Of a DNA stretch of 31,512 nt, positions 5,342 to 21,462 are shown piece by piece. The stretch comes from Flavobacteriales bacterium UBA1820 (GTDB lineage: Bacteria > Bacteroidota > Bacteroidia > Flavobacteriales > UBA1820): contig DCEW01000014.1 of NCBI GenBank assembly GCA_002314265.1, forward strand, positions 1-31,512, written 5' to 3'. The translations under genes were made by a program, and so were the position numbers. The stretch's first letter is position 1, and each line of letters begins with the position of its first letter. The notes under the pieces are model-generated. The model was not told where the DNA came from, searched no databases, and saw nothing but the letters and a program-made list of their open reading frames with translations.

Positions 5342-6924
5342 AGTATTTCGATATGAGTTTTCAAGGTATCCGAAAATCGGATCCGGATTTTTTTTATCTC
5401 AATAAATTCATTGTACTTTCTGGAAATGCGTTCCGGGACGATTTCTATTTTTTCGGTTCCCCGTATCACGATGCGTGTCCGTTCATTTTGCAGAACATTG
5501 CCTTCGAGAATGAAATCCGGACTTAAGTTCAGAATGGCGATGTGTTCCCGTGCATGGGGGTCAAAAATGCGATCCGTTACCTCGATGCCCGCCGGGGCAA
5601 AATGCCATTCCCTGCGGTGAACGATACCCATCGGGCGATATCCGTTATGCCGGGCGATGATCTCTTCAGGGGTATCTTTTTCTATTTTTACCTCGGTTTT
5701 GCGTCCGACGCGGAATCCTCCCCATACGTCCGACGAATTTTTTCCCGCTACGATAACCGTATTGTGTGCTTGGGTAGAACGTTCGTAGTGTCTCCGCTGG
5801 TTTTTTTCGTATGTAGAGATACCTGTGTCGCATATCGTATCGCATCCATCGACCCTCAGGACAAAGTTGAAGGTATCTGCGTGAGCGTGTCCTGGGATAT
5901 AAGACGGACCGATGCGGCCGATATCGACGAAGCATTCGTACCGGGGGTGGACGATCTTTCGGTATCCGGAACTACTCAAGAAACTGGTAGAAGCCGGGAT
6001 GCCGAGACGGTCGGCATAATCGTCCAATTGCAAGTCCGTATAAGAGATTCCCTCGGCAGAATCGTTCAAAAGGGGGAATGTCCCGTCAGCAAAACGCACA
6101 TGATTCATCCATCCCCGCATCTGTGATGCTTTTTCCCGCAAAAAATGCAACAGGTCTCCTGTGCCGGGCAAAGAATCGGAATATATTTGCACCATGTGGA
6201 TACAGTCCAACAAGCGCCCGAGCAAAATGCGATGGTACATTGGGCTGAGTTCGAAATGTCCCCCATCTTCCAATACTTGCTCGTTCAGTTCGTCGGTTAC
6301 GATCTTCCGCCCTTTTCCAAACCACTTCTTGTTTGAAAAATACAAGCCTCCTATCACCAACGAGAAACCATCCTCCAGCAAATGATTTCCCAGCAGGTGG
6401 TATTCCAAACTCTCGTTGAGTATCCGATACTGGGCAAACAAGGAGTCATGAATGCGGGATCGGAGCATCTCGTCGATCCCTCCCCTTTCGGTCAGCAGAA
6501 ATTTTATCCAGTTGATGCTTCTTAATGCAATCGGGTAAGGTTCATATCCGCAAAAGTTGACAGGGGCCTCCGCAATAAAACGCTCGATCCATTTCAAAGC
6601 TTCTTTTTCATCGAGCTGCTCCTGCAGCAGGTAGTCCATATAGTTGAGGTTGTATGCCCACAATCTTCCGTGGGAAAGATCGTTCCATCCTTGAAATTTT
6701 CCAGGGATGTTCAAAAAGACGAAAGTGTCGTCCCGGAAAAGACTCTTGGTTGGGGCAATGAACCGCGTTATGGGGGCTCTCCGAGAGACAAGGGGAGCCC
6801 GGCACATACGTTTCCCCTTTATGGAGGGATCCCACAGGCGCCTGCGCAGACGATACCATACCTGGTAGTATATCTGGCGGAATTTCAAGTCCCGCAACGT
6901 ATAGAAATACCGGGGGATGTTCAC
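5338..6924 (-). CDS. Heparinase II/III family protein (alginate-lyase-like polysaccharide lyase fold)
   Basis: Members of this family cleave uronic-acid-containing polysaccharides by beta-elimination. The 528-residue protein has an N-terminal all-helical region (about residues 60-300, with LLGNHLLEDGFSLVIGGLYF) and a C-terminal heparinase II/III domain with PGHAHADTFNFVL, CDTGISTYEKNQRRHYERS and TQAHNTVIV, which contain the histidines and tyrosine expected at the active site. The start is GTG at 6924, eight bases after the stop of the oxidoreductase; the next in-frame ATG is about 40 codons later. The N-terminus (MNIPRYFYTLRDLKF) is basic and lacks a hydrophobic signal peptide, so I infer a cytoplasmic or membrane-face location, unlike secreted degradative lyases. 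It sits in a biosynthetic locus, not a utilisation locus. Its product or trimming role is unknown. Confidence 0.88.
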   Translation of the reverse strand: MNIPRYFYTLRDLKFRQIYYQVWYRLRRRLWDPSIKGKRMCRAPLVSRRAPITRFIAPTKSLFRDDTFVFLNIPGKFQGWNDLSHGRLWAYNLNYMDYLLQEQLDEKEALKWIERFIAEAPVNFCGYEPYPIALRSINWIKFLLTERGGIDEMLRSRIHDSLFAQYRILNESLEYHLLGNHLLEDGFSLVIGGLYFSNKKWFGKGRKIVTDELNEQVLEDGGHFELSPMYHRILLGRLLDCIHMVQIYSDSLPGTGDLLHFLREKASQMRGWMNHVRFADGTFPLLNDSAEGISYTDLQLDDYADRLGIPASTSFLSSSGYRKIVHPRYECFVDIGRIGPSYIPGHAHADTFNFVLRVDGCDTICDTGISTYEKNQRRHYERSTQAHNTVIVAGKNSSDVWGGFRVGRKTEVKIEKDTPEEIIARHNGYRPMGIVHRREWHFAPAGIEVTDRIFDPHAREHIAILNLSPDFILEGNVLQNERTRIVIRGTEKIEIVPERISRKYNEFIEIKKIRIRFSDTLKTHIEIL

Positions 6925-6932
6925 AGTGAGGA

Positions 6933-9056
6933 TTATTCGATCTCAATCCAACAGTTTCCTTTCAACGACTCGATGGCAGCGAACGAAGCCTGGGTGACGT
7001 TGATGACCTGCTCAAAGGGGATAATTGGGGCGCCTCCATGTGCCGCAAAATGTGCCAGTGCGGCAAACTGGGCGTTATGCCCTTTGTCTTGCCGTGTCTT
7101 CATTCCGGAAAATCCTTTTACTCCGTAACCTTTCAACGATCTCCAGTTGTCGATCACCAGGGTTTTTTCCTGTGCGTAGGCTTCGATGCGTTCTTTGGCG
7201 TAGGATTTGCTTCCATTGGAAAAGTAATTGATCACGGCATTGGATCCGTTTTCAAACCGAAGAAGGATCGAAGCATTGTCTGTGTTTTCTTCCGGATCGA
7301 GTCCCATGGCATTCATGCACACGGCTGTGATTCGGCTTCCGGCCAGATAGGAGCATAGATCCATGTAATGGCAAGCTTCTCCCACGATACGGCCTCCTCC
7401 TATTTCCAGATCATGTACCCACACATTGGCCGGAATGAATCCGGCATTCATCGTGGCTACGATGTTTTTCGGCCCTTCACCCAGCAGGTGTTTCATTTTT
7501 ACGGCCAAAGGAGAGAACCGGCGGTTGAACCCTACGACAACCGAATATTTCCCTTCATTTTCGTTATAAGCCTTGACAATGTCGTCCATTTGGGTGCGGT
7601 TGAGCGCCAAAGGTTTTTCGACGAACACGTGTTTCCCTGCGCGAAGCGCTTCTACAGCCATCGGCGCATGAAGATTGTGTCGGGTGGTGATCACCACGGT
7701 GCTTATATCCGGATCCTGAAGCAGTTCCCGATAATCGGAAGTGGCAAAAGGTACATCCGATTTTTTGGCCAATATTTTGGCCGACAGTCCGGATGCACTG
7801 GCCAGGTATTTGACATCCGCTCCGGCCTTTTTCAAGGCCGGAAGGATCGTGGATGAAGCGAAATTGCCTGCTCCGATGATCCCCAATGCTCGGCCTGTCG
7901 TTTGGTAATCGTGCGAGGATACCACACGGACGGTTCGGGTTTCCGAGGAATCTTCCGGAAAGATCAGAAGGGAGGCAATGCTGCCGGCTTTGCGCATGTC
8001 GCCATAGATCTCTTGATACTGTTCCAAGGGGACCCGCTCGGTGATCAAAGGATCCACATGCAATTGGCCGCTGGAGAGAGCTTGGAGGATAGCTTGGAAG
8101 TTCCGTTTTTCCGTCCAGCGGACGTATCCGATCGGGTAGTCGTTGCCTCGTTGTTCATAATTTTCATCGTAACGTCCAGCCCCGTATGAGCAGGATACCT
8201 GAAACGAGAGTTCCTTCTCGTAAAAATCCGAACGCATGATGTCCAGCCCAATGACACCGATCAGAACGATCCGCCCTTTCTTGCGGCTCATTTGTGCCGC
8301 TTGATGGATGATTTCGTTGCTTTTGGACGAGGCGGTGATCAGTACCCCATCCGCCCCGACCCCTTCGGTGAGGTCTTCGACAAATTTGACTGGATCGGTT
8401 CCTTCTGCAGGATTAATGGCGATGACCCCCATTTCAGCAGCCATCTTCACTTTTTGTCGGTCGAAATCTATGCCGACTACCCGGCAACCGTTGGCGCGTA
8501 GCAATTGGCAGGCAACCAGCCCGATCAGCCCCAAACCTGTTACGACGATCGTTTCTCCCAAGGTTGGATTGAGCAAACGGATACCCTGAAGTCCAATGGA
8601 TCCGATCACGGTAAAGGCAGCCTGGTCGTCGCTGACATTGTCCGGGATTTTTGCCACCAGATTTTCCGGTACGCATACGTATTGGGCGTGATTTCCATTG
8701 GAGGCGACACGGTCGCCTACTTTTAGGCCGACGACTCCTTTCCCTACGGCTACAACCCGTCCGACGTTGCAGTATCCCAGCGGAAGGGGATGTCCCAGTT
8801 TGTTGAATACGGCTTCCAAGGTAGGCATCAGCCCGTCGGTTTTTATCTTGTCGAGCACTTGTTTTACTTTGTCCGGTTGCTGACGAGCTTTTTCGATGAG
8901 GTTGGCTTTGCCAAATTCCACAAGCATTCGCTCGGTCCCCAACGATACCAGAGTCCGGGTTGTCTTGATCAGGACACAACCTGTTTTTACCAGGGGAGTG
9001 GGGACTTCTTCGAGTATCGTAGCGCCGTTTTTAAGGTCTTGTATGATTTGTTTCAT
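6933..9056 (-). CDS. Bi-domain oxidoreductase: zinc-type alcohol dehydrogenase fused to Gfo/Idh/MocA dehydrogenase
   Basis: The 707-residue protein fuses two NAD(P)-dependent modules. The N-terminal half is a medium-chain alcohol-dehydrogenase-like domain, with the GroES-like part containing GHPLPLGYCNVGRVVAVGKGV and a Rossmann motif TGLGLIGLVACQLL. The C-terminal half, from about residue 390, is a Gfo/Idh/MocA domain with GIIGAGNFASSTILPALK, the family's EKPLAL motif, and GGGRIVGEACHYMDL. I chose the ATG at 9056 (MKQIIQDLKNGATILEEVP), the family's usual beginning; the frame stays open to 9182 but the extra residues look non-coding and overlap the CapK-like gene. The enzyme presumably oxidises or reduces a sugar or sugar nucleotide; no substrate has been worked out from the sequence. 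Fusions of this type commonly neighbour heparinase-like proteins in surface polysaccharide loci. Confidence 0.9.
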   Translation of the reverse strand: MKQIIQDLKNGATILEEVPTPLVKTGCVLIKTTRTLVSLGTERMLVEFGKANLIEKARQQPDKVKQVLDKIKTDGLMPTLEAVFNKLGHPLPLGYCNVGRVVAVGKGVVGLKVGDRVASNGNHAQYVCVPENLVAKIPDNVSDDQAAFTVIGSIGLQGIRLLNPTLGETIVVTGLGLIGLVACQLLRANGCRVVGIDFDRQKVKMAAEMGVIAINPAEGTDPVKFVEDLTEGVGADGVLITASSKSNEIIHQAAQMSRKKGRIVLIGVIGLDIMRSDFYEKELSFQVSCSYGAGRYDENYEQRGNDYPIGYVRWTEKRNFQAILQALSSGQLHVDPLITERVPLEQYQEIYGDMRKAGSIASLLIFPEDSSETRTVRVVSSHDYQTTGRALGIIGAGNFASSTILPALKKAGADVKYLASASGLSAKILAKKSDVPFATSDYRELLQDPDISTVVITTRHNLHAPMAVEALRAGKHVFVEKPLALNRTQMDDIVKAYNENEGKYSVVVGFNRRFSPLAVKMKHLLGEGPKNIVATMNAGFIPANVWVHDLEIGGGRIVGEACHYMDLCSYLAGSRITAVCMNAMGLDPEENTDNASILLRFENGSNAVINYFSNGSKSYAKERIEAYAQEKTLVIDNWRSLKGYGVKGFSGMKTRQDKGHNAQFAALAHFAAHGGAPIIPFEQVINVTQASFAAIESLKGNCWIEIE

Positions 9057-9162
9057 CGTGGGGGTGCTGGTTTTATTTTGCCCTAAGTTAGAGCTTTTTT
9101 CTGATTCTTTATCGTATGGGATGGCTTTTTTCAAAAAGTACCGGAGGGAGTAATGTGCAATT

Positions 9163-10503
9163 TTATGGTAGTTGCTTGACAAGGATATTTATTTTTCCAG
9201 CCGGAGTACGGATGGGTTCTGGAAGGTTTTTGAACGAAAAGTCGATTTGGACGTTGGTCGTGTCAAAAAGGTTCGCCGGATCGAAATCGGAGGGAAGTTT
9301 TTGGTTGAGGACATACAGGATAGTTGCTTCTCCGGGTTTCTGCTGTTGAATTTGGAGGTGTGAGCAGTAGTCGAAAAGCCGGTGGTGGCGTCCGAAGATA
9401 AGCCCGGTGAGCGAAATGTTCTTGCCCTGCCGGTCTGTTATGAATTGTCCGCTTCGGCCGTTTTCCAGTCGGAAACTGTACAATAGCCCTTCTTCTTTTT
9501 GGAAATCGGTTACCGTGTCTTCTGTGTCGTATCGGATCAGAGGACTGGCTCGGTTGTAGTAGGATGTCCCGGTCAAATGTCCTTCGCCTGTTACCTCGGT
9601 AAAACCGTATGTCTGAAACGGGTTGTAGCAGAATTTCTCGTTTTTCTCATATGCCAGAACACATCGTTCGGTATGTCCGTACCAGGATACGGTGTCGAGG
9701 CCGAATGTGCGCTCGATTTCCTCACGAAAATGCGCATAAGGATATTCCGATCCCAAAAAGGCTCCTTTGAAATATTGGGAAAGCATGGCCCTGGATTCCG
9801 GATGCTGTCGGCAATATTGTGCGAAGTCGTACAAGACACTGGGATAACCATGCAGATATTGGCATTTGTATTTACGCACGATTTTTTCCAACGCGTGTAT
9901 GTATGAATCGAAAGGTTTATACATGTCCACTTCGAAACTATTTCGGGCAAAATCGTATTCGATGGCGTTTTTCACGTCGCTCCGTCCAGCAAAATGTACT
10001 TTGGCATTCCAGGGGCGATATCCTAATTTTTCCCAAATGGTGAACATGTGTGCCCATTCGTGTGCGGTCGAGGAAGGTTCGATGTAAAACGAAAGAGGAT
10101 GACCCGATGAGCCGCCGGTGTTTACCACGTGTTTTTTTGCCACACATTCGGCCGTTCGATATTCCAAAGGATAGTTCAGCAAGATTTTTTTGCTGATAAC
10201 CGGGATTCTTTCCAGCTCGTCGAATGTTTCTAGTTTTTCCGGAGAAAATCCGCATTGACGGTAATAATCCCGGTAAAAAGGTACATTGGCTACCGCAAAA
10301 TCCACAATGTTCTTTACTCGGGAAAAGATGAAACGTTTCTTCTGATCGTCGGACAAGGTGTCGAACATACGGATTTCTTGTCGGCGTGTCTGATACAGTT
10401 TTCCCAAAAACGGTTTGTAACGGTTGGGGATACGACCAATGACGATGCCCAATCGAGGGGGTATTTTGAACCCGTTTTTTCGAAGAATGTCCGTTATGCT
10501 CAT
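9163..10503 (-). CDS. CapK/PaaK-like adenylate-forming enzyme
   Basis: This 446-residue protein resembles phenylacetate-CoA ligase and the capsule protein CapK, members of the ANL superfamily that activate carboxylates as acyl-adenylates. It shows the ATP-binding loop NTGGSSGHPLSFY at residues 128-140, an aromatic motif SWYGHTERCVLAY around residue 280, and the adenylate-contacting PLIRYDTEDT. A C-terminal subdomain follows, without a clear conserved lysine that I can name. The stop lies 106 bases before the start of the bi-domain oxidoreductase, and the start overlaps the upstream glycosyltransferase by four bases. In a capsule locus it may attach an acyl or amino-acyl group to the glycan, but this is inference; acid and acceptor are unknown. 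Confidence 0.85.
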   Translation of the reverse strand: MSITDILRKNGFKIPPRLGIVIGRIPNRYKPFLGKLYQTRRQEIRMFDTLSDDQKKRFIFSRVKNIVDFAVANVPFYRDYYRQCGFSPEKLETFDELERIPVISKKILLNYPLEYRTAECVAKKHVVNTGGSSGHPLSFYIEPSSTAHEWAHMFTIWEKLGYRPWNAKVHFAGRSDVKNAIEYDFARNSFEVDMYKPFDSYIHALEKIVRKYKCQYLHGYPSVLYDFAQYCRQHPESRAMLSQYFKGAFLGSEYPYAHFREEIERTFGLDTVSWYGHTERCVLAYEKNEKFCYNPFQTYGFTEVTGEGHLTGTSYYNRASPLIRYDTEDTVTDFQKEEGLLYSFRLENGRSGQFITDRQGKNISLTGLIFGRHHRLFDYCSHLQIQQQKPGEATILYVLNQKLPSDFDPANLFDTTNVQIDFSFKNLPEPIRTPAGKINILVKQLP

Positions 10504-11633
10504 AGCAGGGTTGTGTTATTTTGTATGTTTTCGGAGAGCATCTTGCAAAGTTCCAGATAGTGTTCGGCACGTTTTTGTGCTGAAGGGAATGCTGTAAGAC
10601 GTTTTTTCCCTTTTTCGGCGAGATGTTTTCGTAATAATTTGTCTTCAGCCAGTTTTAGAATCTTGTCTGCAGCATCTTTTGGATCGACAGGATTGAAATA
10701 GAGAGCAGCATCTCGGCAAATAGAGTGTGCAAAATCCAAGTCGGATGTGAGGATAGGCAATTCCATGGCCATGGCTTCCGGATAATTGGCCGAGAAACAT
10801 TCGAGTAATGTGGGAAGAAACATGGCATCACACTCCCGATACAGAGATGGGCACTCTTTTGCGGGAACAGGTCCTGTATTGTGTACTTGATCTCGGTATT
10901 TTAGGGGAATGATCTTTTGATAGTCTTCCGGCTTTAATGTTAATACAAACCGTATGTTTTTCCCCGAAGGATTATTGTTTAGAATGTCGATGACCGAGGG
11001 GATAATTTCCAGATTCTTATGCAGGTAATAAGCACTTACGGTAAGCAGTCGGAATTCGTCGGGTTGCCTTTCAGGAAGCTTTTTTGCAACGGGTTCCGGT
11101 TGAAAATATTGAGCCCCGCATGTATTGGATACAGTATACACGGGATCAAATCCTAGCAATGTCCGAACCCGTTTGTTTGCATCGTCAGTTTCTACCACAT
11201 AAGCATCGGCTTCTTTTTTAAAAAAAAATAATTTGATGTTTTTTTGGAGGTGATAAGAAATTTTCCAACAAAAATCCATCATTTTGAAAAAAGAAGATTC
11301 TGGATAAATCCAGTATCCTCTGGCAAACCCTTCCAAATGTTTGGACTTCGGGCGCCAGTAGGATGGCCCGAAAATGGTGAACACCGCATCCGGCCGGATT
11401 TGTTCTTCCAAAGGAGATAGTACCCTGCTCAACTTCCAGAAGGGAACGGAAGGGATGTCGTAAAAGAAAAAATTCTTTCCGAACGACGTCCGGTCGACTT
11501 GTCGGGCGACATTCGGGGACATGAATACGTGATATTCATTGTCTGTGATTTGGCGGCATTCAGATAGGAAGGAGAGGGCGACTTGCAGGCCTCCACCTCC
11601 TAAGTGATTAGATAGATTGATGAGGAGCTTCAT
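10500..11633 (-). CDS. Glycosyltransferase, GT-B fold (GT4-like)
   Basis: A 377-residue protein with the architecture of a retaining GT4 enzyme. The N-terminus has a glycine-rich acceptor-side loop (NLSNHLGGGGLQVALSFL, residues 7-24). The C-terminal half shows RLLTVSAYYLHKNLEIIPSV, the usual start of the donor domain, and TLLECFSANYPEAMAMELP, a clear version of the E-x7-E nucleotide-sugar motif, followed by ILTSDLDFAHSICRDAALYF. It overlaps both neighbours by four bases (upstream glycosyltransferase and downstream CapK-like gene). It should add one residue of the repeat unit; which sugar cannot be told. Confidence 0.9.
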   Translation of the reverse strand: MKLLINLSNHLGGGGLQVALSFLSECRQITDNEYHVFMSPNVARQVDRTSFGKNFFFYDIPSVPFWKLSRVLSPLEEQIRPDAVFTIFGPSYWRPKSKHLEGFARGYWIYPESSFFKMMDFCWKISYHLQKNIKLFFFKKEADAYVVETDDANKRVRTLLGFDPVYTVSNTCGAQYFQPEPVAKKLPERQPDEFRLLTVSAYYLHKNLEIIPSVIDILNNNPSGKNIRFVLTLKPEDYQKIIPLKYRDQVHNTGPVPAKECPSLYRECDAMFLPTLLECFSANYPEAMAMELPILTSDLDFAHSICRDAALYFNPVDPKDAADKILKLAEDKLLRKHLAEKGKKRLTAFPSAQKRAEHYLELCKMLSENIQNNTTLL

Positions 11634-12724
11634 AATTGATTCAGCGTATCAGCAATTATTTTTTTTGTGTCGTATGCGTTGTAAATCCTGTTGGCATTGG
11701 ATTTGTAGTAAGTATAATCAGATTCCAGTCGTTTTAAACCTTGCTCAATGCTCATGATGTTGTTTTCATCGACGACTACACCAGCTCCCGTGCTTTCGAA
11801 CAAGTATTTTAATCCGGGAATATCGTTCCCGATCATGGGTAGGGAATAGGCGGAATATTCATTTATTTTATTGGGTGCGCAAAATATATTGTTGAGGCTA
11901 TCGGATTTGTAGAAAGCGCATCCTATGTGTGCAACAGTAGCAAATATTAAATAATCTGGAAAGGGAAGGAAAGGAATGTGTATGATGCTATCATCGATAG
12001 ATAGTAGCTTGTCCATCATTCCCGGAGTGGCACGACCTACAAAAAGCATTTGGTATCCTCCGACGTTTTTGGCTGCTTGCACGATCTTTTCCGGAGATCG
12101 ATCAGGATAGATCAAGCCTTGGTATAAAATCACTTTCTTCCCTTGCAACAGGGATAGAGTATCGGTGTATTTTTCTTTGATTTTGTACAATTGTTCTTCG
12201 CTGGGAAGCAGATAAGGTTTATTGGGTAAGACTGTCGGGCGTTTTTCAAGGTGAAACCAGACTTGATACACGACAGTCCGGTTGTATTCGGGCATGAATA
12301 CTGCTTTTGCGGAATGGATCACATGTCTTATGGCGTTGAGTTGCAGTTTGGATCTTTCATGCAATTCGGATATCTGCAAAATGTAGTCGTATTTTTTGAT
12401 GGATTTGCCTAAGGCGAGGATGGTATGCCCCCCTTCGATCCACAAAAGGGGTTGGCTTTTTGCGGTATATTCTTTTGTTGTTTTCGCACAAAATCGTCGG
12501 AAACGATAATAGCTCCATAACTTGCCAATGATCGGAAGCCCGTGCTTGTCCGGTATCTGGTGTACGGTTATTCCCTTTTCTTCCAGATCTTTTTTCAGGC
12601 CATCGGAAATACCGGTAACAATGAGGCTGGGGCGATAGCCTAAGTCAAGAAGAATATGCAGATCGCTGATCACGGGCGGGATCTTTTCCAATGCGGTTTT
12701 GGTGATGAGAATGATTTTCTTCAT
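11630..12724 (-). CDS. Glycosyltransferase, GT-B fold, divergent
   Basis: A 364-residue protein with a Rossmann-like N-terminus (MKKIILITKTALEKIPPV) and a C-terminal domain opening with KKVILYQGLIYPDRSPEKIV, then MLFVGRA, and APNKINEYSAYSLPMIGNDIPGL, which corresponds to the donor-binding E-containing segment of GT4/GT-B enzymes. Sequence identity to well-described families appears low, so the family label is at fold level. It is preceded by a 51-base gap after the polymerase gene and overlaps the next glycosyltransferase by ATGA. The gene is AT-rich like its upstream neighbours. Predicted role: transfer of one sugar to the lipid-linked repeat. Confidence 0.82.
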   Translation of the reverse strand: MKKIILITKTALEKIPPVISDLHILLDLGYRPSLIVTGISDGLKKDLEEKGITVHQIPDKHGLPIIGKLWSYYRFRRFCAKTTKEYTAKSQPLLWIEGGHTILALGKSIKKYDYILQISELHERSKLQLNAIRHVIHSAKAVFMPEYNRTVVYQVWFHLEKRPTVLPNKPYLLPSEEQLYKIKEKYTDTLSLLQGKKVILYQGLIYPDRSPEKIVQAAKNVGGYQMLFVGRATPGMMDKLLSIDDSIIHIPFLPFPDYLIFATVAHIGCAFYKSDSLNNIFCAPNKINEYSAYSLPMIGNDIPGLKYLFESTGAGVVVDENNIMSIEQGLKRLESDYTYYKSNANRIYNAYDTKKIIADTLNQL

Positions 12725-12775: not shown

Positions 12776-14122
12776 TCATAAAGAATATATGTTGTATAGC
12801 AATAAAACAGCAAATGTACATCCTTGTATAAAGATCACGTTCCTTCGATTGAACTTTTCCCGATGAGTATAATAAGCATTATACAATATGGGAAAAAGGA
12901 TAATGTATCCGATCTTGTGCCGCAATTGCATGGAAATATACGATATGGCTATCAGTGTGGTTAGGAAAAAGAGTATGGCTCCGAAATGTTTCAAGTTTTT
13001 GTCTTTGATCATAATCCAGATGCCCAAAATTATCGGATAGAAACAAAAACTCCATAACAAAATGTTTCCTATTTCCCAAAAACTTTCTGATCGGAATCTG
13101 ACGATCCATCCCCAGGCATCGGAATATTCTGCACGGACAAAGGGCTTTACTTGAATGGGAGAGATCATGGTAATGGGAAGGGCTGCAGCCATCAATATGG
13201 GATTTCCGCTTTGTAGCATTCCTCCGATCCCTCCCATATCTTCATCGAGGAACTTGTCGTATCGGTTTGAAATACGCTCGGTCATGGATATATTATCCGT
13301 AGATCCTTCGCTGTTAAACGATCTCATATAATTGGAGTATCCGATCATTTGGTCTCCCAAAATGGCAACGAGCAAAAAGATGGAGATCACTACACCTGCT
13401 TGGCTTTTGCTTCGGATGAGATTTCGAGAAAAGATAAACATGATGGCAATGTAAAATAAAGCCAAAGCTCCGTTTGCTCCCCGGATCAATCCTGTGAATA
13501 CGGCAAAAACAAGGGCAACAAAATATTTTCCTTCGGTGGCCTTATTCAGGCAAATTAACAGGAAAAAAGCCATAAAACCGTCTCGGTATAAATGCACGGA
13601 TCCTTCCAAAAAATTACTGTTTGCAACAATTAACAGGAAGGCACCAAGGGTATAAATTTTATTTTTCAGCGGATAAAATTGCCTTGCCAATTTTATAGCC
13701 TGCCCTACGGCCAATGATCCGATAAACCAGTTGAATGGCAACAGATCAAGGTGGACGATCTCTTTGAAGGAAGAGAAAGGCAGGTAAATGAGTCCGACAA
13801 TAATTTCATATAGCGTTAGATTCGTATCAAATTCTCCGGAAAGAACATTGTTTATATTCTTAAAATAAAATGTATCATCCACATATGGGGCAAATGTTTC
13901 TCCATACGAAATATAATAGCTCGCAGCAGCAACGATGCCCCAAAATGAAAAGATCAAGTAAGATAGATAGTAAACATCGGTATATTTGCGGTCATAGCGG
14001 AACGAAAGACTCAGGACTACTATATAGAAAAGATAAAAAAAATAGCTATTGCCCGGAAGCAGATACAAATAAATTAGAGTGGTTGCTAAAAACAATATGA
14101 CTTTTAGAAGGGCTTTCAGCAT
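12776..14122 (-). CDS. wzy: Predicted polysaccharide repeat-unit polymerase (Wzy/EpsG-like), integral membrane
   Basis: This 448-residue protein is strongly hydrophobic with roughly ten to twelve predicted membrane segments (for example residues 4-22, 28-40, 54-72, 150-166, 195-225, 240-255 and several near the C-terminus). Between them is a long loop around residues 270-330 that is partly charged. A segment EGSVHLYRDGFMAFFL precedes a membrane helix, as in EpsG-type polymerases, and RHKIGYIILFPILY closes the protein. There is no clear motif, which is normal for Wzy proteins. The call rests on topology and on being the only candidate polymerase in a locus that also has a flippase. Very AT-rich compared with the ends of the locus. 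Confidence 0.75.
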   Translation of the reverse strand: MLKALLKVILFLATTLIYLYLLPGNSYFFYLFYIVVLSLSFRYDRKYTDVYYLSYLIFSFWGIVAAASYYISYGETFAPYVDDTFYFKNINNVLSGEFDTNLTLYEIIVGLIYLPFSSFKEIVHLDLLPFNWFIGSLAVGQAIKLARQFYPLKNKIYTLGAFLLIVANSNFLEGSVHLYRDGFMAFFLLICLNKATEGKYFVALVFAVFTGLIRGANGALALFYIAIMFIFSRNLIRSKSQAGVVISIFLLVAILGDQMIGYSNYMRSFNSEGSTDNISMTERISNRYDKFLDEDMGGIGGMLQSGNPILMAAALPITMISPIQVKPFVRAEYSDAWGWIVRFRSESFWEIGNILLWSFCFYPIILGIWIMIKDKNLKHFGAILFFLTTLIAISYISMQLRHKIGYIILFPILYNAYYTHREKFNRRNVIFIQGCTFAVLLLYNIYSL

Positions 14123-14185: not shown

Positions 14186-15346
14186 TTATTTCTTTAATAG
14201 ATTCTGCAATTTACCAAATATGTCTTTCTCCCGGCCCTCCGGGAATGCCATTTTTATCTCCGGCATGTGGAGTAAGTCCAATCCGTCCAAGCTCTTGGCA
14301 TTTGATAACTTTATGGCATACTTGTCGGTTCCGTACGCATATTTCGAGAGTCCTTTTGATTTTTCACTGTAAGACAGGAATACAGCCGGGATGCCACAAG
14401 ACAGTGCATTGATGGCACAATGCATCCGGGCTGCAATGACGGTTTTGCATTGTTTTATGTATCTTTTCAGTCCGATGAAACCTGGATCCGTTTTGACAAG
14501 GGTTACGCGGTTTTTGTGTTTTTCCGGGATATTTTCATATATTTTTTCTAAGAAATACAAGTCATTGTCATTTGTGCTGATCGGACTGAGTACGTGAGGA
14601 AGGAGGTAGATATCGGTATTGTATTTTTTTATAATCCCTGTTACGATATGCGCTTGTTGCTTGGCAGCTTCCTCGAGGTCTTTGTAAAAATAAAGCGAAG
14701 ACAGAGGGCTAAGGTTTATTCCTATGTGAGTTTTGTCGGCTTCCTTTGCAGCAGGGAATGGATCCGGGACGGAAAATGCAGGGTCTGGAGCCAATACCAC
14801 ATTTTTTTCTATCCCCAGTCGTTTGAGGTATTCTTGGGTATTTTCTTCCCGGCATACGATCAGGTCGGTTCTTTTCAGGTGATTCTTGAAAAAGTCTTCC
14901 GCTTCCGGGTTTTCGGTAAAAGGTCCGATGGAAGCCCCCCATAAGATGTATTTCAGTCCCAATGCCTGCAGTTTTTCACAAAACAAAGGGAGGGAAGGGT
15001 TGTAATTCTTCTGGGCATCCAAAGTGTAAATATCGCCTCCGATCGAAAATACGGCATCGAAACGATATTTTTTTACCCAGGAAAGCCGGTCATACGGCAT
15101 ATTGTATTTGATCCCCAAGATGGACAACCCTTTTCTTACCACTCGGTGAATGAACGAGGGCTTTCTGTTGATCAGGTGCACGTTACATCCTTCCAATCTT
15201 TTTCGGTCATCTGCGTAATTATAGGATGCATAGTACACTTCGATCTCCGGTATATTCTTTTCCAGTAGAACTGTCGTTCCTCGGACGATTGCTTCGCAAC
15301 CGTAATTGTAGGTACCTCTTATGCCGATAAGCAATACTTTCTTCAT
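14186..15346 (-). CDS. Polysaccharide pyruvyl transferase family protein (WcaK/CsaB-like)
   Basis: Members of this family add ketal pyruvate from phosphoenolpyruvate to sugars of exopolysaccharides or cell-wall polymers. The 386-residue protein shows the N-terminal IGIRGTYNYGCEAIV (residues 7-21), VFSIGGDIYTLD, ILWGASIGPF, and the C-terminal signature AARMHCAINALSCGIPAVFLSYS with the K-rich SEKSKGLSKYA. The start at 15346 lies eight bases after the stop of the FrhB fusion gene; the frame is open upstream but that part is antisense to nothing useful and overlaps the FrhB gene. Pairing with an FrhB-type protein recurs in bacterial polysaccharide loci. Some family members may have other transfer activities, so pyruvylation is probable, not certain. 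Confidence 0.88.
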   Translation of the reverse strand: MKKVLLIGIRGTYNYGCEAIVRGTTVLLEKNIPEIEVYYASYNYADDRKRLEGCNVHLINRKPSFIHRVVRKGLSILGIKYNMPYDRLSWVKKYRFDAVFSIGGDIYTLDAQKNYNPSLPLFCEKLQALGLKYILWGASIGPFTENPEAEDFFKNHLKRTDLIVCREENTQEYLKRLGIEKNVVLAPDPAFSVPDPFPAAKEADKTHIGINLSPLSSLYFYKDLEEAAKQQAHIVTGIIKKYNTDIYLLPHVLSPISTNDNDLYFLEKIYENIPEKHKNRVTLVKTDPGFIGLKRYIKQCKTVIAARMHCAINALSCGIPAVFLSYSEKSKGLSKYAYGTDKYAIKLSNAKSLDGLDLLHMPEIKMAFPEGREKDIFGKLQNLLKK

Positions 15347-15354
15347 GAGTGTCT

Positions 15355-17136
15355 TCAGAACCAGTTTATGTTTTCCTTTATGATGCGCGCGGGGATCCCG
15401 GCTACAATGGTATGTGCTGGTACATCCCCGGTAACCAGTGCCCCGGCGGCGACGATTGCGCCATCTCCAATGGTGACACCTTTGAGGATGATGGCCCGGT
15501 TGCCTATCCATACGTGTTCGCCTATGTGGATGGGTTTGGCAATTTCATAGCCGGGCAGATCTATCGTGTGGCCATCGTAGTCTCGGATGACTACGTCCCG
15601 ACCGATGGTGCATCCTTTTCCAAGGGTAGTGTGAGAAGCACAGGTAATCTGGCAACCTTCGTTGATGAATCCTCCCTCCAGCGTGAGATGACCACCTTTT
15701 ACGACCCGTATGTATGAGCCCGCATAAGCAGTAAAGTTTCCGCGGATCTCCATGCAGCTGTTTTCCTCTATCAGGAGCCGGGTTTCCATGTGGGAAGATT
15801 TGACTTGTTTGTATCCCAAGATAAGGTTTTGGTTCAGGATCATCCTGGCTTTTTCCCGAAGTTCGATGCGCGTGTATTTCAGCGGGAAGAGCCATGAGGT
15901 GCGTTTGCGGCTAACTTTTCCGTTTGCAAAATTGTATCGGATAAATTTCCACCACGAGGCAATGGACCCTCCCATCATCAGAAAGACGCGCCCTATTTTT
16001 AGGGCTTTTCTTTTGTATCGGGAAAAGACAGAGGTCTTCATATATTTTTTTACGACCCTTTCAAAAGGGTATTTGTCCAAATCCTCAAAGAATTCTTTTC
16101 GATTGTTGCTTCGGGGAACGGGAGATGAGAAAAGAGCTTTGTTTTCTTTTTCTGCTTGTTCCAGCGTGAATTCTTTTTTTACCAATACATTTCCCAAGGA
16201 ATCGAAATATCGCATTCCTTTCTCGGAATTGACGATTACCAATGAGGTCCCTTTGTCTTGATCCATCGAAGGGTCGATCTTTTCGATACCCCAAAAATCG
16301 GCCAGCGTAATGTCGGCTTTTCGCGGCATGTCTTTGAAAGAACATTCATAACAGGCAGGTCGCGCAAAGTTTTTTTCTCGCAGATATCCGATAAAAAAAG
16401 AATCCTTATAACGGTCTTTGCAATATTGTTTCCCGTTTTCAAAATTTATCCGCATGGAAAAACGATGCCAACCATGGGTCTTGTCCTTGAATTTGATTTG
16501 GCAGGCTTTGCCTCCATAGGTTCTTTCCTGCATTTCCATGTATTTGAGAAATACTTTGGGGGAGTTGACACCCAGGCAAATGAAATCGCAGGTAATCAGA
16601 TTGTCATAGTCTTTTCCCAATACGAGATACAAGGCCGCTATCTGACAGGGGGCGGCACAAATTAAGACTTTCTCCCCTGCCTGCAACAGTTTTTTTATCT
16701 CGTTGTAGATGTTTTCGGTGTGACTTTGCAAGTATTTTGAACTGCGCAATTCGTCCAAGCGGGTTCGGTCGTTGGTTACGATGTGGGATACGGTATGATC
16801 CGGATTATAAACAGCGCCGCTTACATATCCTCCTAGATCGAACATTTGGTTGGCAAGTGCTGAGAAAACCCCTCCGGAGGTGCTGTCCAAACGGATGTGT
16901 TCATCGGTGTGGTATGCGGCAAACACTTTGGGTTTGTCAAACCGCAGCGTGTATGATTTTTTATTGATCTCGGGACAGACTCTTTCGCACAAGCTGCAGT
17001 CGATGCACAGATCGAGATTGACATGTGGATACCAAAAGCCTTCGGCATCGACCTCCATGGTGATACATTTTTTGGGACAGACTTGTTGGCATGCATTGCA
17101 GCCGCAGCAATCTTCATTTCTCTTTATGTCTATCAT
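15355..17136 (-). CDS. FrhB-type iron-sulfur protein fused to a hexapeptide-repeat acyltransferase
   Basis: A 593-residue two-part protein. Residues 1-60 are a two-cluster ferredoxin domain: C10, C13, C16, C20 and C44, C47, C50, C54 each fit CxxCxxCxxxCP. Then come FrhB/FdhB N- and C-terminal domains ([43 protein letters not shown], to about residue 300), which in F420-reducing enzymes bind FAD. After a linker, residues of about 445-593 form a left-handed beta-helix acyltransferase with IRDYDGHTI carrying the likely catalytic histidine, [19 protein letters not shown] and [13 protein letters not shown] ending. Both halves lie in one uninterrupted frame. The start ATG overlaps the acyltransferase-3 stop (ATGA). 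F420 is not expected in Bacteroidota, so the electron donor is probably something else. Substrate unknown; a joint reduction and acylation of a sugar is inference. Confidence 0.88.
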
Positions 17137-18149
17137 TTTTGAAATCCGATCAGGGTCAGTAATTTAACAGGCAGTATTTTGGATGCGTATTTTACTGTAT
17201 AATATGAAACATACAGGGTTATGGCAAAAATAAGAAAAACGCACAGGATATAAAAAAGAGCCGATATTCCCATCGAATTCGATACGGGATCCGTCATGTT
17301 GTACAGCATCCGAATACCATAGGCAACAAAGGCTATTGCAATGATGTGAAATAGATAAATGCCATAGGACAAGTCTCCTATTTTACTCAATGCATTGGGT
17401 TTTGTGATATGATCTTTCTTTTTGATAAAGATGAGAATAAAAGACATGATGTATACAAAAGGTGTGAATCTCAAGGGGGTGGCCGCAAATTGAGTGTCTT
17501 TGGTGAAAAGCGACAGGATTCCCGTTTCTGTCACTTCCAAGGCGAATCCCAAGCATGCAAGCATAATTAAGCTTTTGGTAGAGTATGTGGGGGTATAATT
17601 CTTCATCTTTATGCCTAAATAATAATAGATAAACCAAGCAGTCGGCATACGTGCTCCTGTAAAATGAAGAGGCCCTATCTCTAATTGATGCCAATAGCAG
17701 TATATTAATGTAACGGGGGTTACTGCGTAGAAAAGAATGTTGATGATTTTGTGATCTTTAAACTTTACTATAAAGGGAGTAAACAATGTGAGATAGAATA
17801 AAACGAGGATGAAGTACAAGGTTCCATATCCAAGGAGGACTTCTCTTGCAATTTCTTCAAAAGAATACCGCGTGCCTCTGATATAAGAGAAGGCGAGGTA
17901 AGAAACAGTCCAAAAGATATATGGGATGATTAGGCGCTTGAAGCGATGTTTTATGAAGCTTAAGGGATTTTCTTTTACCTTTTGTTGATTTGTAAAGTAT
18001 CCGGATAAAAAGATAAATCCGGCTACGCCTATGTTTATGAGATTTTGAATGATGTAATTCGCTTGGATCTGTGTCGGGTCAAATTGTGCATGGGTGAGAA
18101 CCACTGCCATGATGGCGAGACCTCGCAAGGTTTGCATCGAAATATTCAT
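17133..18149 (-). CDS. Acyltransferase family 3 membrane protein (O-acetyltransferase-like)
   Basis: This 338-residue integral membrane protein probably acylates, most often acetylates, the glycan or its lipid-linked precursor. The N-terminus has the AT3 hallmark R-x10-H (R9 and H20 in [17 protein letters not shown]), followed by about ten hydrophobic segments and the typical [16 protein letters not shown] near residue 280. I chose the ATG at 18149, which overlaps the stop of the SGNH-like gene by ATGA and puts R9 at the right place; the longer open frame to 18293 lies within that gene. AT3 proteins often work with an SGNH domain protein, and the next gene upstream encodes an SGNH-like protein. 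Confidence 0.9.
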
Positions 18150-19081
18150 AATTCGCCTAATCGTTTTATGAGCTCTTTTGTAAATCGAGTTCTCCCTTTC
18201 TTGTTGAAAAAGAATGAATTGATGTATAATCCGGCATCGCTGTATTGATCGTCGCGGAAAAAATTGAGAACAGGTTCCTGCTCTGCCTTGCATCGCTCTA
18301 TATTTCCGATGACATATTCTGCAAGATAACTGTCGGGGAAAAAAGACCCCAATTCCTTTGTGACCGGAAGGAGAATAAAAACGGGGCGTAGTTCTTTTTC
18401 CCGGCAGAGCGCAAGAATCTTTTTGACGATCGCAATGTTTTTGTCAATACTCTCTTGGTTTTTTTTTGAAAGATTGATGTGATTCAGGTCATCGAGGGAG
18501 AATTGTTTTTTCCATCCATTCACCCATTTTTTTGCATCGGCCTTTCGTTGCTCTTGGTTCATGGGGTTGTCTTCCAGATCCATACGGGAATCTTTCTTCT
18601 CGTCTTTGACGATCTTCAGTATCCGTTTTCCAGCCATCAGAACAGGAAATCGCAGAATCTTGCATTTTTTCCAACGAGAGTATCCTTCGATGCTTTCCGG
18701 TTGCAGGAAAGGGTAGTATTTGCGGTTTGTCGCATCATTGGCATATTTGTAAACGAAAAATTTGAAGGGGCAGACAGGTATCAACACGAAGGCTCCTTTG
18801 CGCAGGTGTGATACATATTGTTTGAGGATGCGGTAGTCGTAGAGGAAGGGTTGTGGGGCAAGAGCCATGTTCATGCCTTTCCAGGCGGTGTCCTGATAGT
18901 CAAAGGCGAATTTCGGTTGGCTGCTCCCCAGATTGACAATCTGTAAGTTGTTTGGAATGCCTTCTGTGAATTTCCGGGCATCGACAAACAGATTGCGGTA
19001 CCACCAAGTGCGTTTCAATAGGTGGTTGATGATAAAGAGAGCTAGAATGATGGCTAAAAGTAAGATCAGTACAATGGTCAT
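18146..19081 (-). CDS. Membrane-anchored SGNH/DltD-like protein, catalytic residues partly missing
   Basis: A 311-residue protein with one N-terminal membrane segment (residues 2-21) and no cleavage site, so the rest probably faces the periplasm. Residues 48-56 (IVNLGSSQP) resemble block I of SGNH hydrolases, with S54 at the nucleophile position, and PVFILLPVTKEL near residue 235 matches the central strand. The block V region at 282-296 keeps the N-x-x-G end but has N288 and F291 where Asp and His are usual. It overlaps the acyltransferase-3 gene by four bases and follows the SDR gene by two bases. I infer a partner of the acyltransferase. Fold assignment is by motif only and moderate; the gene would otherwise be called hypothetical. 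Confidence 0.65.
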   Translation of the reverse strand: MTIVLILLLAIILALFIINHLLKRTWWYRNLFVDARKFTEGIPNNLQIVNLGSSQPKFAFDYQDTAWKGMNMALAPQPFLYDYRILKQYVSHLRKGAFVLIPVCPFKFFVYKYANDATNRKYYPFLQPESIEGYSRWKKCKILRFPVLMAGKRILKIVKDEKKDSRMDLEDNPMNQEQRKADAKKWVNGWKKQFSLDDLNHINLSKKNQESIDKNIAIVKKILALCREKELRPVFILLPVTKELGSFFPDSYLAEYVIGNIERCKAEQEPVLNFFRDDQYSDAGLYINSFFFNKKGRTRFTKELIKRLGEL

Positions 19082-19083
19082 TT

Positions 19084-19917
19084 TTACAGCAGGGTTTCGC
19101 CTCCGTCACAGGCTATGATTTGACCGGTAATGTGATTGGATGAGTCGTTTGCCAGAAAAAGAGCCAGTTCGGCGATTTCTTCTGCAATGGCTGTACGGTG
19201 CTCTTTGTTGGAGCCGTCGAATACGTTTCCTCGGGGATCGATACCGTTCAGGGGGGTTGCGATAATTCCCGGCGCAATGCCGTTTACAAGGATGCCTTCG
19301 TGGGTGTAATCTCTGGCCAATCCTTTTGTGAGTGCGTTTACTCCCCATTTGGAAATACCATAGGGGCCACAATCTCCCTGAAATCCTCGTGTGGAGGAAA
19401 TGTTTATGATCTTTTTTACCCTCGTTTTTTCTTTTTCCTTTTTGAAGTATTTTACTGCTTGTTGGCAGATGAAGAAAGTGCCCTTTAGATTGGTATGGAT
19501 GATTTTGTCCCATTCCGCTTCGTCGATCTTTTCAAAAGGGAGAAAAGTATACAGGCCGGCATTGTTTACCAAGATGTCGAGCCCTTCCATTATTTGGATG
19601 GCTTCGTTGATTTTCTTCTCAGTACTCGAGATATTGGCTGCGTCCCAGACCAGGGTGTGCAGTCTTGTGCTGTTGAGGTGTGCGGCGACTTGTGCTAATT
19701 TGTCCGGGTTACGTCCGGTAATGGTAACTTCGGCTCCGGAGGATAAAAACTTTTGGGCAATGGCATAGCCGACCCCACTTCCTCCTCCGGTTATGAGGGC
19801 TTTTCTTCCTTTCAGGCATTCTGTGTAGGTTACCTGGGAGACGTTCACATATACGACTCCTCCCTTACGCAGATACTTGATGAAATTTTGAAAGGCGCGA
19901 TATAGTTTCTTTAGCAT
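19084..19917 (-). CDS. Short-chain dehydrogenase/reductase (SDR), classical type
   Basis: A 277-residue NAD(P)-dependent oxidoreductase. It carries TGGGSGVG at residues 43-50, DILVNNAGLY, a catalytic serine in NISSTRGF and the YGISK (YxxxK) motif, then the C-terminal LVNGIAPGIIATPL and ITGQIIACDGG. An extra N-terminal stretch of about 35 residues (MLKKLYRAFQNFIKYLRKGG) precedes the domain and is amphipathic and basic, possibly a membrane-contact helix. It lies 6 bases after the flippase gene and 2 bases before the SGNH-like gene. Substrate unknown: FabG-like acyl substrates or a sugar are both possible; its place next to acyl-modification genes makes a role in making or altering the modifying group plausible. 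Confidence 0.85.
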   Translation of the reverse strand: MLKKLYRAFQNFIKYLRKGGVVYVNVSQVTYTECLKGRKALITGGGSGVGYAIAQKFLSSGAEVTITGRNPDKLAQVAAHLNSTRLHTLVWDAANISSTEKKINEAIQIMEGLDILVNNAGLYTFLPFEKIDEAEWDKIIHTNLKGTFFICQQAVKYFKKEKEKTRVKKIINISSTRGFQGDCGPYGISKWGVNALTKGLARDYTHEGILVNGIAPGIIATPLNGIDPRGNVFDGSNKEHRTAIAEEIAELALFLANDSSNHITGQIIACDGGETLL

Positions 19918-19923
19918 GATGTT

Positions 19924-21462
19924 TTAGTGTTTGGTGAATTTTAGAAATAGTTTCAGGAGGCGCTGGTTTATTTTTTCCCGCAGGTGATGGTCGATACCGA
20001 TCAGGTAGGTGCATAACAAGACGGAACAAACAGAAGAGACCCCCACCACTAACAGCCGGAAGAAAGAACTTTCCATATGATTCTGTACGATGATGGGGAC
20101 GATGGCGGAAAGGATTCCGATGAGCAGGCTGATGAGAAATACTTTCTTGATGAATAGAGGGATCGAATAGCCGACCAGTCGTTGTATCAGATATAGTTCC
20201 ACCCACATGTTCAAGAATGTAATCACAAGAGAAACAATGAATACCGAGGTGGGTCCATATCCCATTTTCAATGCGATGTAGGCAAAAATCACGGTAGAAA
20301 TGAGGATGCTCCCACAGATGACATTGGGGATCTTGATTTTACCGGTGGCGTGCATCGAGGTGATAATTGGCGTACGGAAAGCACTTATTAGCACGATGAG
20401 GATAATGATCCTTGTGAAGGAGGGAGTGTACTCAGGCACTTCTTTCAGCCATAAGTTCAAAATATATTCTATTTCCAGAAAAATGGGTAGTGAGAGCGCA
20501 AAAACCAACAGGAAGGAATATTTCGAGGCATTGAATACCAGTTGGATCATCTTTTGGATTTCTCCGCGGGCATAGTATTTGATAATGGGGGGGCGTACGG
20601 CCGTGATGATGTTGTTGGAAAACTGTGTGATAGCTCCTTGAACCTGATAAGAAATCCCTCTTGCGGCATTGACAGTTGGTCCGAAAAACATGTTTAAAAG
20701 AATATTGAGCCCTTGTCCTTGGGTTAATGTGCTAAAGTCGCCGAACAAAGACCATCCGGAGTATGTAAATAAGGTTTTGTATAGTTTTTTGTCTTTTGGC
20801 AACAGAAAAGCACAGTATGGGAAAGATTTTTTGATATAGATAAAATAAAATGAGAACATAAATCCTGTCTCGCAGAACATCAGCAAGGCGTATAACTTGA
20901 GCTTGTCCACGGGAAAGATTCCTAATAAATAGAGGATGGCTAGTTTAAGCACTGAATCTACAACACTTGCCCAAGCATAAACGTTCATTTTTTCATGCGC
21001 AATGATCGTTGCGATAAACGGAGTTTGCAAGAGCGTGCACAGGCAGGTGAATATCGAAAATTGATACACCGTCAGAGCGGCCGACATCCTTTCCGGCGGG
21101 ATGACCAACTTGTTTTGTACAAACCACAGACCAATGGTTTCTGCCAAAAGAAGAATGATTAAGGCAATGATCAAATGATTGACAAGTGTGGTGTTGAATA
21201 CTTTTCGGAGTTGCCCGTAGTCCTGTTTCCCCAATTCGACGGTGATAAAACGCGAGGTGGAGGCTGCCATGGCTCCATTGAGGAAAGTAAACATGAGGAC
21301 GACGCCGCCTATTACATTGTATATCCCGTAATCGATTTCTCCCAAGGTATTTAAGACCACCCGGGAGGTGTACAAGGCAATAGCCATGATAAGCGCCATG
21401 CGAAAATACAGGATGACTGTATTTTTTGCGATGCGCTTATTGTTTTCGGCATCTGTGGTCAT
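19924..21462 (-). CDS. wzx: Polysaccharide flippase, Wzx/MATE-like superfamily
   Basis: A 512-residue integral membrane protein with about twelve to fourteen hydrophobic segments, beginning with IAKNTVILYFRMALIMAIALYTSRVVL and GEIDYGIYNVIGGVVLMF, the typical opening of Bacteroidota lipopolysaccharide flippases. It should move the undecaprenyl-linked repeat unit across the inner membrane for Wzy-dependent assembly. ATG at 21462 is the only sensible start, 21 bases after the wecB stop. Composition shifts here: wecB is GC-rich while this gene is clearly more AT-rich. Confidence 0.9.
   Translation of the reverse strand: MTTDAENNKRIAKNTVILYFRMALIMAIALYTSRVVLNTLGEIDYGIYNVIGGVVLMFTFLNGAMAASTSRFITVELGKQDYGQLRKVFNTTLVNHLIIALIILLLAETIGLWFVQNKLVIPPERMSAALTVYQFSIFTCLCTLLQTPFIATIIAHEKMNVYAWASVVDSVLKLAILYLLGIFPVDKLKLYALLMFCETGFMFSFYFIYIKKSFPYCAFLLPKDKKLYKTLFTYSGWSLFGDFSTLTQGQGLNILLNMFFGPTVNAARGISYQVQGAITQFSNNIITAVRPPIIKYYARGEIQKMIQLVFNASKYSFLLVFALSLPIFLEIEYILNLWLKEVPEYTPSFTRIIILIVLISAFRTPIITSMHATGKIKIPNVICGSILISTVIFAYIALKMGYGPTSVFIVSLVITFLNMWVELYLIQRLVGYSIPLFIKKVFLISLLIGILSAIVPIIVQNHMESSFFRLLVVGVSSVCSVLLCTYLIGIDHHLREKINQRLLKLFLKFTKH

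Follow-up and report, generated by a model that had tools for sequence, protein, structure and literature searches.

Proteins of the FrhB family can be supplied with electrons by F420H2 or, in the case of the 7-hydroxymethyl chlorophyll a reductase HCAR, by ferredoxin, and groups derived from phosphoenolpyruvate (PEP) on sugars are, once reduced, lactyl (1-carboxyethyl) ethers. Such ethers have been known on bacterial surface sugars for decades from structures (K22 paper, 1988), and the FMN nitroreductase domain of FbiB is described as reducing the PEP-derived enol of dehydro-F420-0 to its lactyl form in F420 synthesis (PMC6450877). The open-licence PubMed Central literature that we searched named no biosynthetic genes for the lactyl ethers. 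Here, we describe a gene on the minus strand (15355..17136) of a 31,512-nucleotide stretch of DNA from Flavobacteriales bacterium UBA1820 (contig DCEW01000014.1; the whole stretch is referred to as the window), whose 593-residue product is predicted to be a surface-sugar protein in which an iron-sulfur flavin reductase of the FrhB type is joined to a left-handed beta-helix (LbH) sugar O-acetyltransferase. We consider it fairly probable that this FrhB-LbH fusion provides the reduction and acetylation half of a pathway by which a surface polysaccharide receives a lactyl ether; the gene context can be read directly from the data, and the chemistry is what we infer from it. We found no description of the FrhB-LbH pairing, or of the proposed pathway, in the same open-licence literature.

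A predicted iron-sulfur flavoprotein fused to an acetyltransferase domain

Translation of the minus strand from 15355 to 17136 gives one stop-free frame of 593 amino acids (aa), and the forward reading of the same stretch contains several stops. The single frame uniting an FrhB-type protein with an acyltransferase had been reported by the first-pass annotation, which gave no strand. Two ferredoxin-type [4Fe-4S] cysteine sets occupy residues 1–60 (16957..17136, minus; Fer4 families of Pfam at residues 6–56), and the eight cysteines of these two CxxCxxCxxxC sets (C10/C13/C16/C20 and C44/C47/C50/C54) are kept in all 62 rows of our alignment A3, confirming that both sets are complete. The FrhB_FdhB flavin domain follows at residues 67–345 (16102..16938, minus), and both of its previously proposed parts exceed their Pfam cut-offs, namely FrhB_FdhB_N (PF04422, residues 71–140, 27 bits against a cut-off of 22) and FrhB_FdhB_C (PF04432, residues 155–314, E 6.9e-18, 65.4 bits against 23.3). 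Four further cysteines, C164, C187, C262 and C265, are likewise invariant in 62 of 62 rows and could be ligands of a third cluster.

The LbH O-acetyltransferase domain spans residues 397–593 (15358..15948, minus) and carries a match to Hexapep, the hexapeptide-repeat beta-helix family, at residues 536–570 (E 2.2e-12). The beta-helix domain of the first-pass annotation is borne out, and its plausible catalytic histidine would be H523, which, like W543, is invariant in 62 of 62 rows and aligns with NeuO; we take the counterparts of these two residues to be the catalytic residues of NeuO/OatWY. The AlphaFold2 model of the fusion has a mean pLDDT of 92.6 and a pTM of 0.68.

To define the spread of this architecture, 8000 candidate proteins were scored, of which 4589 matched at E 0.001; the best 120 of these 4589 homologues are all 571–605 aa long and all carry both PF04432 and Hexapep. 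A search of genome contigs, from which the best 80 of 170 confirmed loci were kept, used the fusion alignment as its query, so that the proportions among the 80 loci are tilted toward fusions. FrhB and LbH are fused in 59/80 loci, most of them 38–60% identical across the whole query, and are separate genes no more than 400 bp apart in 12/80 (ten from Clostridia-type records, plus the Bacteroidota loci L049 and L080), while FrhB has no LbH within 400 bp in 9/80. According to their record titles, the 80 loci come from Bacteroidota, Campylobacterota, Clostridia, Lentisphaerae, Omnitrophota, Synergistales, Fibrobacterales and others. The separate adjacent genes of the 12 split loci are what one might cite for the fusion being an assembly or frameshift artefact, a possibility that the first-pass annotation had raised; the fused loci from many organisms and the presence of both domains in each of the best 120 homologues refute it, and we give it practically no chance. 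The same annotation had treated reduction and acylation as a linked pair. This stands insofar as the two are natural partners, being neighbours even where they are separate genes, but FrhB is not bound to LbH, since it also occurs without LbH nearby and fused to another enzyme (see below). Any FrhB domain at all was found in only seven of the 40 genomes of a genus sample, which argues for an accessory gene outside core energy metabolism. The fusion protein already has a double name in one database.

FrhB and polysaccharide pyruvyltransferase

The gene next to the fusion encodes a polysaccharide pyruvyltransferase (PVT) of 386 aa (14186..15346, minus; PF04230, E 2.7e-43, 149.4 bits against a cut-off of 25.3). 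Its start is likely the in-frame ATG at 15346, 8 bp past the stop of the fusion, the listed open reading frame extending to 15511. When neighbouring genes were labelled with profiles derived from proteins of the window and from relatives of these proteins, a PVT was present in 53 of the 58 loci of at least 15 kb, and a flippase of the window's type in 50. As a less biased test, Pfam models were applied to whole genomes of 70 Bacteroidales and 60 Clostridia, counting matches over the cut-off. The Bacteroidales genomes held 12 FrhB places and 29 PVT places, with a PVT within 6 kb of nine of the 12 FrhB places and within 1.2 kb of eight of these nine; for the Clostridia, a PVT lay within 6 kb of 16 of 21 FrhB places, ten of them within 1.2 kb. 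Moreover, two Clostridia genomes encode PVT and FrhB in a single, Pfam-confirmed frame (L136:5645-8053:-, 802 aa; L137:6419-8737:-, 772 aa). The occurrence of FrhB homologues beside pyruvyl transferases, which the first-pass annotation had mentioned, thus turns out to be key, and its statement that they have no defined role gives way to evidence pointing to reduction of the neighbouring PVT's product to a lactyl ether.

Three further loci deserve mention. The 697-aa PVT frame of L053 also matches the profile of the window's membrane acyltransferase and is a possible PVT-acyltransferase fusion. Of two rumen plasmids, Pseudobutyrivibrio pNP95 (L111) carries two PVT/FrhB pairs, and Ruminococcus albus pRUMAL02 (L112) carries a PVT (annotated as two pieces), a flippase and FrhB.

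An unrelated reductase beside the pyruvyltransferase

One PVT without FrhB, that of locus L090, directly adjoins a gene for a 344-aa protein of the nitroreductase family (NTR). We read about 6–7 kb on each side of the Bacteroidales PVTs, contig permitting. Nine of the 29 PVTs lie by FrhB and four directly adjoin an NTR (L090, L103, L104 and L125), with a second PVT of L103 located 2.7 kb from the NTR; FrhB and NTR together were near none of the 29 in the stretches read. The NTRs of L090, L103 and L104 are confirmed by Pfam, and that of L125 was identified by our own profile only.

Used as a query, one such NTR matched in three of 296 Bacteroidota genomes, in two of them directly beside a PVT; among plasmid records the NTR matched 36, of which 24 are from Rhizobium. 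We read ten plasmid contexts, and in seven of them the cluster, or the NTR protein itself, also includes a PVT. The gene order is PVT-acetyltransferase-NTR in Allorhizobium, PVT-flippase-NTR in Lactiplantibacillus plantarum TMW 1.1623 (L117) and in two contexts from Enterococcus faecalis, and flippase-NTR-PVT in Escherichia coli, whereas Gemmobacter and Paracoccus alcaliphilus have single PVT::NTR proteins annotated only as pyruvyltransferase (L113:4318-6933 and L114:4405-6954). In a 95-PVT tree, for which three of the labels were assigned by hand, the partner changes between FrhB and NTR at least eight times. Because these unrelated reductases interchange beside PVT, and both are also found fused to it, we suggest that they share one job, the reduction of PVT's product.

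We also considered whether these NTRs belong to the family of the FbiB C-terminal domain (TIGR03553), and rejected this assignment, as the E. coli NTR scored 19.7 and the Paracoccus fusion 23.5 bits against a cut-off of 249.55. The flippase-NTR-PVT polysaccharide cluster of E. coli lies at L115:13312-17016 and L121:12459-15302, on plasmids (30COLEC and HCP30S3_I2); the NTR gene matches in three of 5426 E. coli genomes (one in part), on plasmids only, and in L121 the annotation gives an incomplete PVT, close to an IS5-like element. No annotated PVT lies within about 6 kb of the NTR relatives of L116 and L118 (Rhizobium) and L119 (Ruegeria), whose role may differ.

Lactyl sugars as the expected product

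Lactyl-ether sugars are present in Butyrivibrio exopolysaccharides. In Klebsiella, the K-antigen table of PMC6856556 (Table 1) gives O-lac only on K22 and K37, on glucuronic acid (GlcA), and on K66, on glucose. The text of that paper speaks of 'O-lactose' and its table places O-lac on single sugars; as the title of the K22 structure paper has 1-carboxyethyl, we read O-lac as lactyl. Among 46 non-pyruvylated Klebsiella types, a PVT gene is reported in only four, namely K8, K22, K37 and K66 (PMC4616057). K8, listed there as non-pyruvylated, has a pyruvylated galactose in the PMC6856556 table, which leaves precisely the three lactyl types as non-pyruvylated types with an unexplained PVT gene. The probability that the three lactyl types fall among the four PVT types by chance is 2.6e-4; it is 0.003 when K22 and K37 are counted once, as they have a locus in common (PMC3857182, where AB819893 and AB819894 are printed as the K22/K37 accessions). 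Furthermore, two nitroreductases and one coenzyme F420 hydrogenase are recorded among 1515 Klebsiella cps genes (PMC4616057), which are the counts that we would predict if these enzymes served K22, K37 and K66. In the E. faecalis CPS-C/D polysaccharide, one and the same galactofuranose is substituted with lactic acid (O-3) and with acetyl (O-5) (PMC3060912), a pattern that would agree with the fusion of a reductase and an acetyltransferase. In published NMR data, the lactyl methyl doublet lies at 1.37–1.40 ppm.

A proposed pathway and its alternatives

We propose that PVT would first move the enolpyruvyl part of PEP onto a sugar hydroxyl of a lipid-linked repeat unit or its precursor. The FrhB half would then draw electrons, probably from reduced ferredoxin and by way of its two [4Fe-4S] clusters, to its flavin. 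With these it would turn the enol ether into a lactyl ether before the usual pyruvate ketal could be closed by a second hydroxyl. Such an enol ether, arising from the first half-reaction, could be trapped by a flavin hydride as the lactyl ether, which is how MurB acts after MurA. The LbH half, judging from its fold and its conserved histidine and tryptophan, would O-acetylate the same sugar or repeat unit, and the neighbouring flippase would export the modified unit. In other bacteria the reduction would be performed by the unrelated FMN nitroreductase. The weakest step of this scheme is the acetyltransferase acting on the same residue. Extending it beyond the window, we lean slightly towards the view that the lactyl-ether sugars found in capsules, O-antigens and exopolysaccharides are made across many bacterial phyla along a single two-step route, in which a PF04230 enolpyruvyl transferase is followed by FrhB or an FMN nitroreductase and to which the FrhB-LbH fusion adds O-acetylation. 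This sharper lactyl-ether reading replaces the interpretation of the first-pass annotation, which is partly supported.

As to the electron donor, cofD, a gene of F420 synthesis, was over the cut-off in none of 15 FrhB-bearing genomes of relatives, which makes ferredoxin likelier than F420. By analogy with these relatives the donor of the fusion is probably ferredoxin, in agreement with the earlier suggestion of a donor other than F420, and the ferredoxin-linked FrhB is perhaps the choice of anaerobes. That the fusion is a true F420-dependent dehydrogenase of the FrhB type acting in sugar synthesis would suit the F420H2-using members of its family; given the cofD result, we regard it as very unlikely.

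Two other accounts of the gene pairs need to be weighed. PVT might form an ordinary pyruvate ketal, as PVTs of known function do (PMC10435577), and the reductase might then open this ketal reductively, reaching the same lactyl ether in the other order. All of the gene-pair evidence fits such an order equally. However, we know of no precedent for a flavin enzyme reducing an unactivated ketal, and GlcA, the residue lactylated in K22 and K37, has no 6-hydroxyl with which to form a 4,6-ketal. The precedent of FbiB also concerns a PEP-derived enol reduced by an FMN nitroreductase domain (PMC6450877), and ketal opening seems to us quite improbable. The other account is that FrhB and NTR reduce a different sugar intermediate, for example a ketosugar or a deoxysugar, and that PVT co-occurs with them through a shared glycan family. 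The genes of a short-chain dehydrogenase (SDR) and of a conserved neighbour, U311, indeed also accompany the fusion, and PVT is not nearby in five of the 58 long loci and eight of 33 FrhB places. Yet the PVT::FrhB and PVT::NTR fusions would be difficult to account for if the reductase did not work with PVT, and the same applies to the repeated swap of two unrelated reductases beside it, so that we rate this account as unlikely.

Several observations weigh against the reduction of a PVT-made enol ether as proposed here. The five long loci without PVT are L040, L041, L051, L065 and L075, and no PVT was found within 6 kb of three of the 12 Bacteroidales FrhB places (G052, G061 and one place in G068) and five of the 21 in Clostridia (G430, G448, G432, G421 and G419), some of which lie at contig ends (G430, on a contig of 3.7 kb in total, G448 and G421). 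Six of these contexts were read. In the three Bacteroidales cases, glycosyltransferases, an LPG-synthase-like protein or an MBOAT protein adjoin FrhB; G430 shows a weak flippase match, and the window-derived profiles labelled nothing around FrhB in G448 and G432. For 15 of the 29 Bacteroidales PVTs, the stretches read contain no reductase of either kind, and these PVTs may simply form ketals, as E. coli WcaK does; six of them (L107, L124, L128, L130, L131 and L133) were found by Pfam and missed by our own profile, and are therefore divergent or partial. The NTR is without a PVT in L108, the third Bacteroidota locus of the search, and in three of the ten plasmid contexts (the two from Rhizobium and the one from Ruegeria), and the PVT link may be a minority per plasmid record, given the share of Rhizobium. 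Many supports in the 95-PVT tree are weak, and an early branch unites the window's PVT with four further PVTs that are linked to FrhB. The L090 NTR had no NCBIfam match, and the Paracoccus PVT::NTR fusion has a slightly higher score against BluB than against FbiB. We know of no glycan structure from any strain with an FrhB-LbH fusion. Finally, in K22 the acetyl is on galactose and the lactyl on GlcA (PMC6856556 Table 1), so that the two groups need not sit on one residue.

The surrounding operon

The fusion lies in a tight co-directional polysaccharide operon on the minus strand. It includes a MATE-like flippase of the WZX type (19924..21462; MatE E 2.4e-4, below the Pfam cut-off) and the SDR (19084..19917; adh_short E 4e-48), followed by U311 (18146..19081) and a membrane acyltransferase (17133..18293; Acyl_transf_3, Pfam E 7.6e-34) whose stop overlaps the start of the fusion by 4 bp. 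U311 had no Pfam match and no significant sequence match in the PDB; its relatives occur in other fusion loci, where they accompany the flippase, the SDR and the fusion (for example L002, L005, L006, L008 and L009). Beyond PVT come a 448-aa protein without a Pfam match (12776-14122) and two Pfam-identified glycosyltransferases (11630-12724 and 10500-11633). The operon continues with a 446-aa protein weakly similar to AMP-binding/phenylacetate-CoA ligases (9163-10503), a 749-aa fusion of a zinc-type alcohol dehydrogenase and a Gfo/Idh/MocA oxidoreductase (6933-9182), a heparinase II/III-like protein (5338-6924) and another glycosyltransferase (4133-5341), all on the minus strand.

Comparison with described systems

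If the proposed pathway is true, many genes annotated as 'coenzyme F420 hydrogenase' or 'nitroreductase' in capsule and O-antigen loci would gain a function, the 'pyruvyltransferase' genes of non-pyruvylated Klebsiella capsules would be explained, and lactyl groups would become predictable from sequence. It might also mean that an oxygen-sensitive enzyme has been exchanged for an ordinary flavoenzyme.

Each domain involved is a member of a known family, and the reaction logic has precedents. With the F420-oxidising beta subunits of the FrhB/FpoF family, the F420-dependent sulfite reductase Fsr and HCAR, the fusion shares the 2[4Fe-4S] ferredoxin part and the FrhB flavin domain, and its residues 1–342 match their fold at 13–22% identity in structural alignments. 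It differs from them in its place in a polysaccharide operon, in the attached acetyltransferase and in the lack of a cofD over the cut-off in the related genomes. NeuO and OatWY are stand-alone O-acetyltransferases of polysialic acid, whereas here LbH is the C-terminal half of a flavo-iron-sulfur protein. The NTRs that take FrhB's place share the FMN nitroreductase fold with the C-terminal domain of FbiB, with weak NCBIfam similarity in two of three scanned, but they score far below the FbiB family cut-off, and FbiB acts on the phospho-enol of a cofactor and not on a glycan. CsaB, Pvg1p and WcaK belong to PF04230, as does the window's PVT (the window's protein and WcaK were tested), and yield cyclic ketals of pyruvate; the 8-kb stretch of WcaK contains neither an FrhB gene nor one for a nitroreductase.

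The closest parallel in chemistry is MurA/MurB, where PEP likewise leads via an enol ether to a lactyl ether, that of muramic acid, by proteins unrelated to those proposed here. The scanned PVT, FrhB and nitroreductase proteins contain no MurA or MurB Pfam domain, and MurB/FAD_binding_4 gave no match at E 0.001 in the fusion and the nitroreductases, or at E 0.1 in the PVT::FrhB fusions. PVT with FrhB, or with a nitroreductase, would thus work like MurA with MurB while standing outside both families, a reaction pair of the same kind invented anew with unrelated enzymes.
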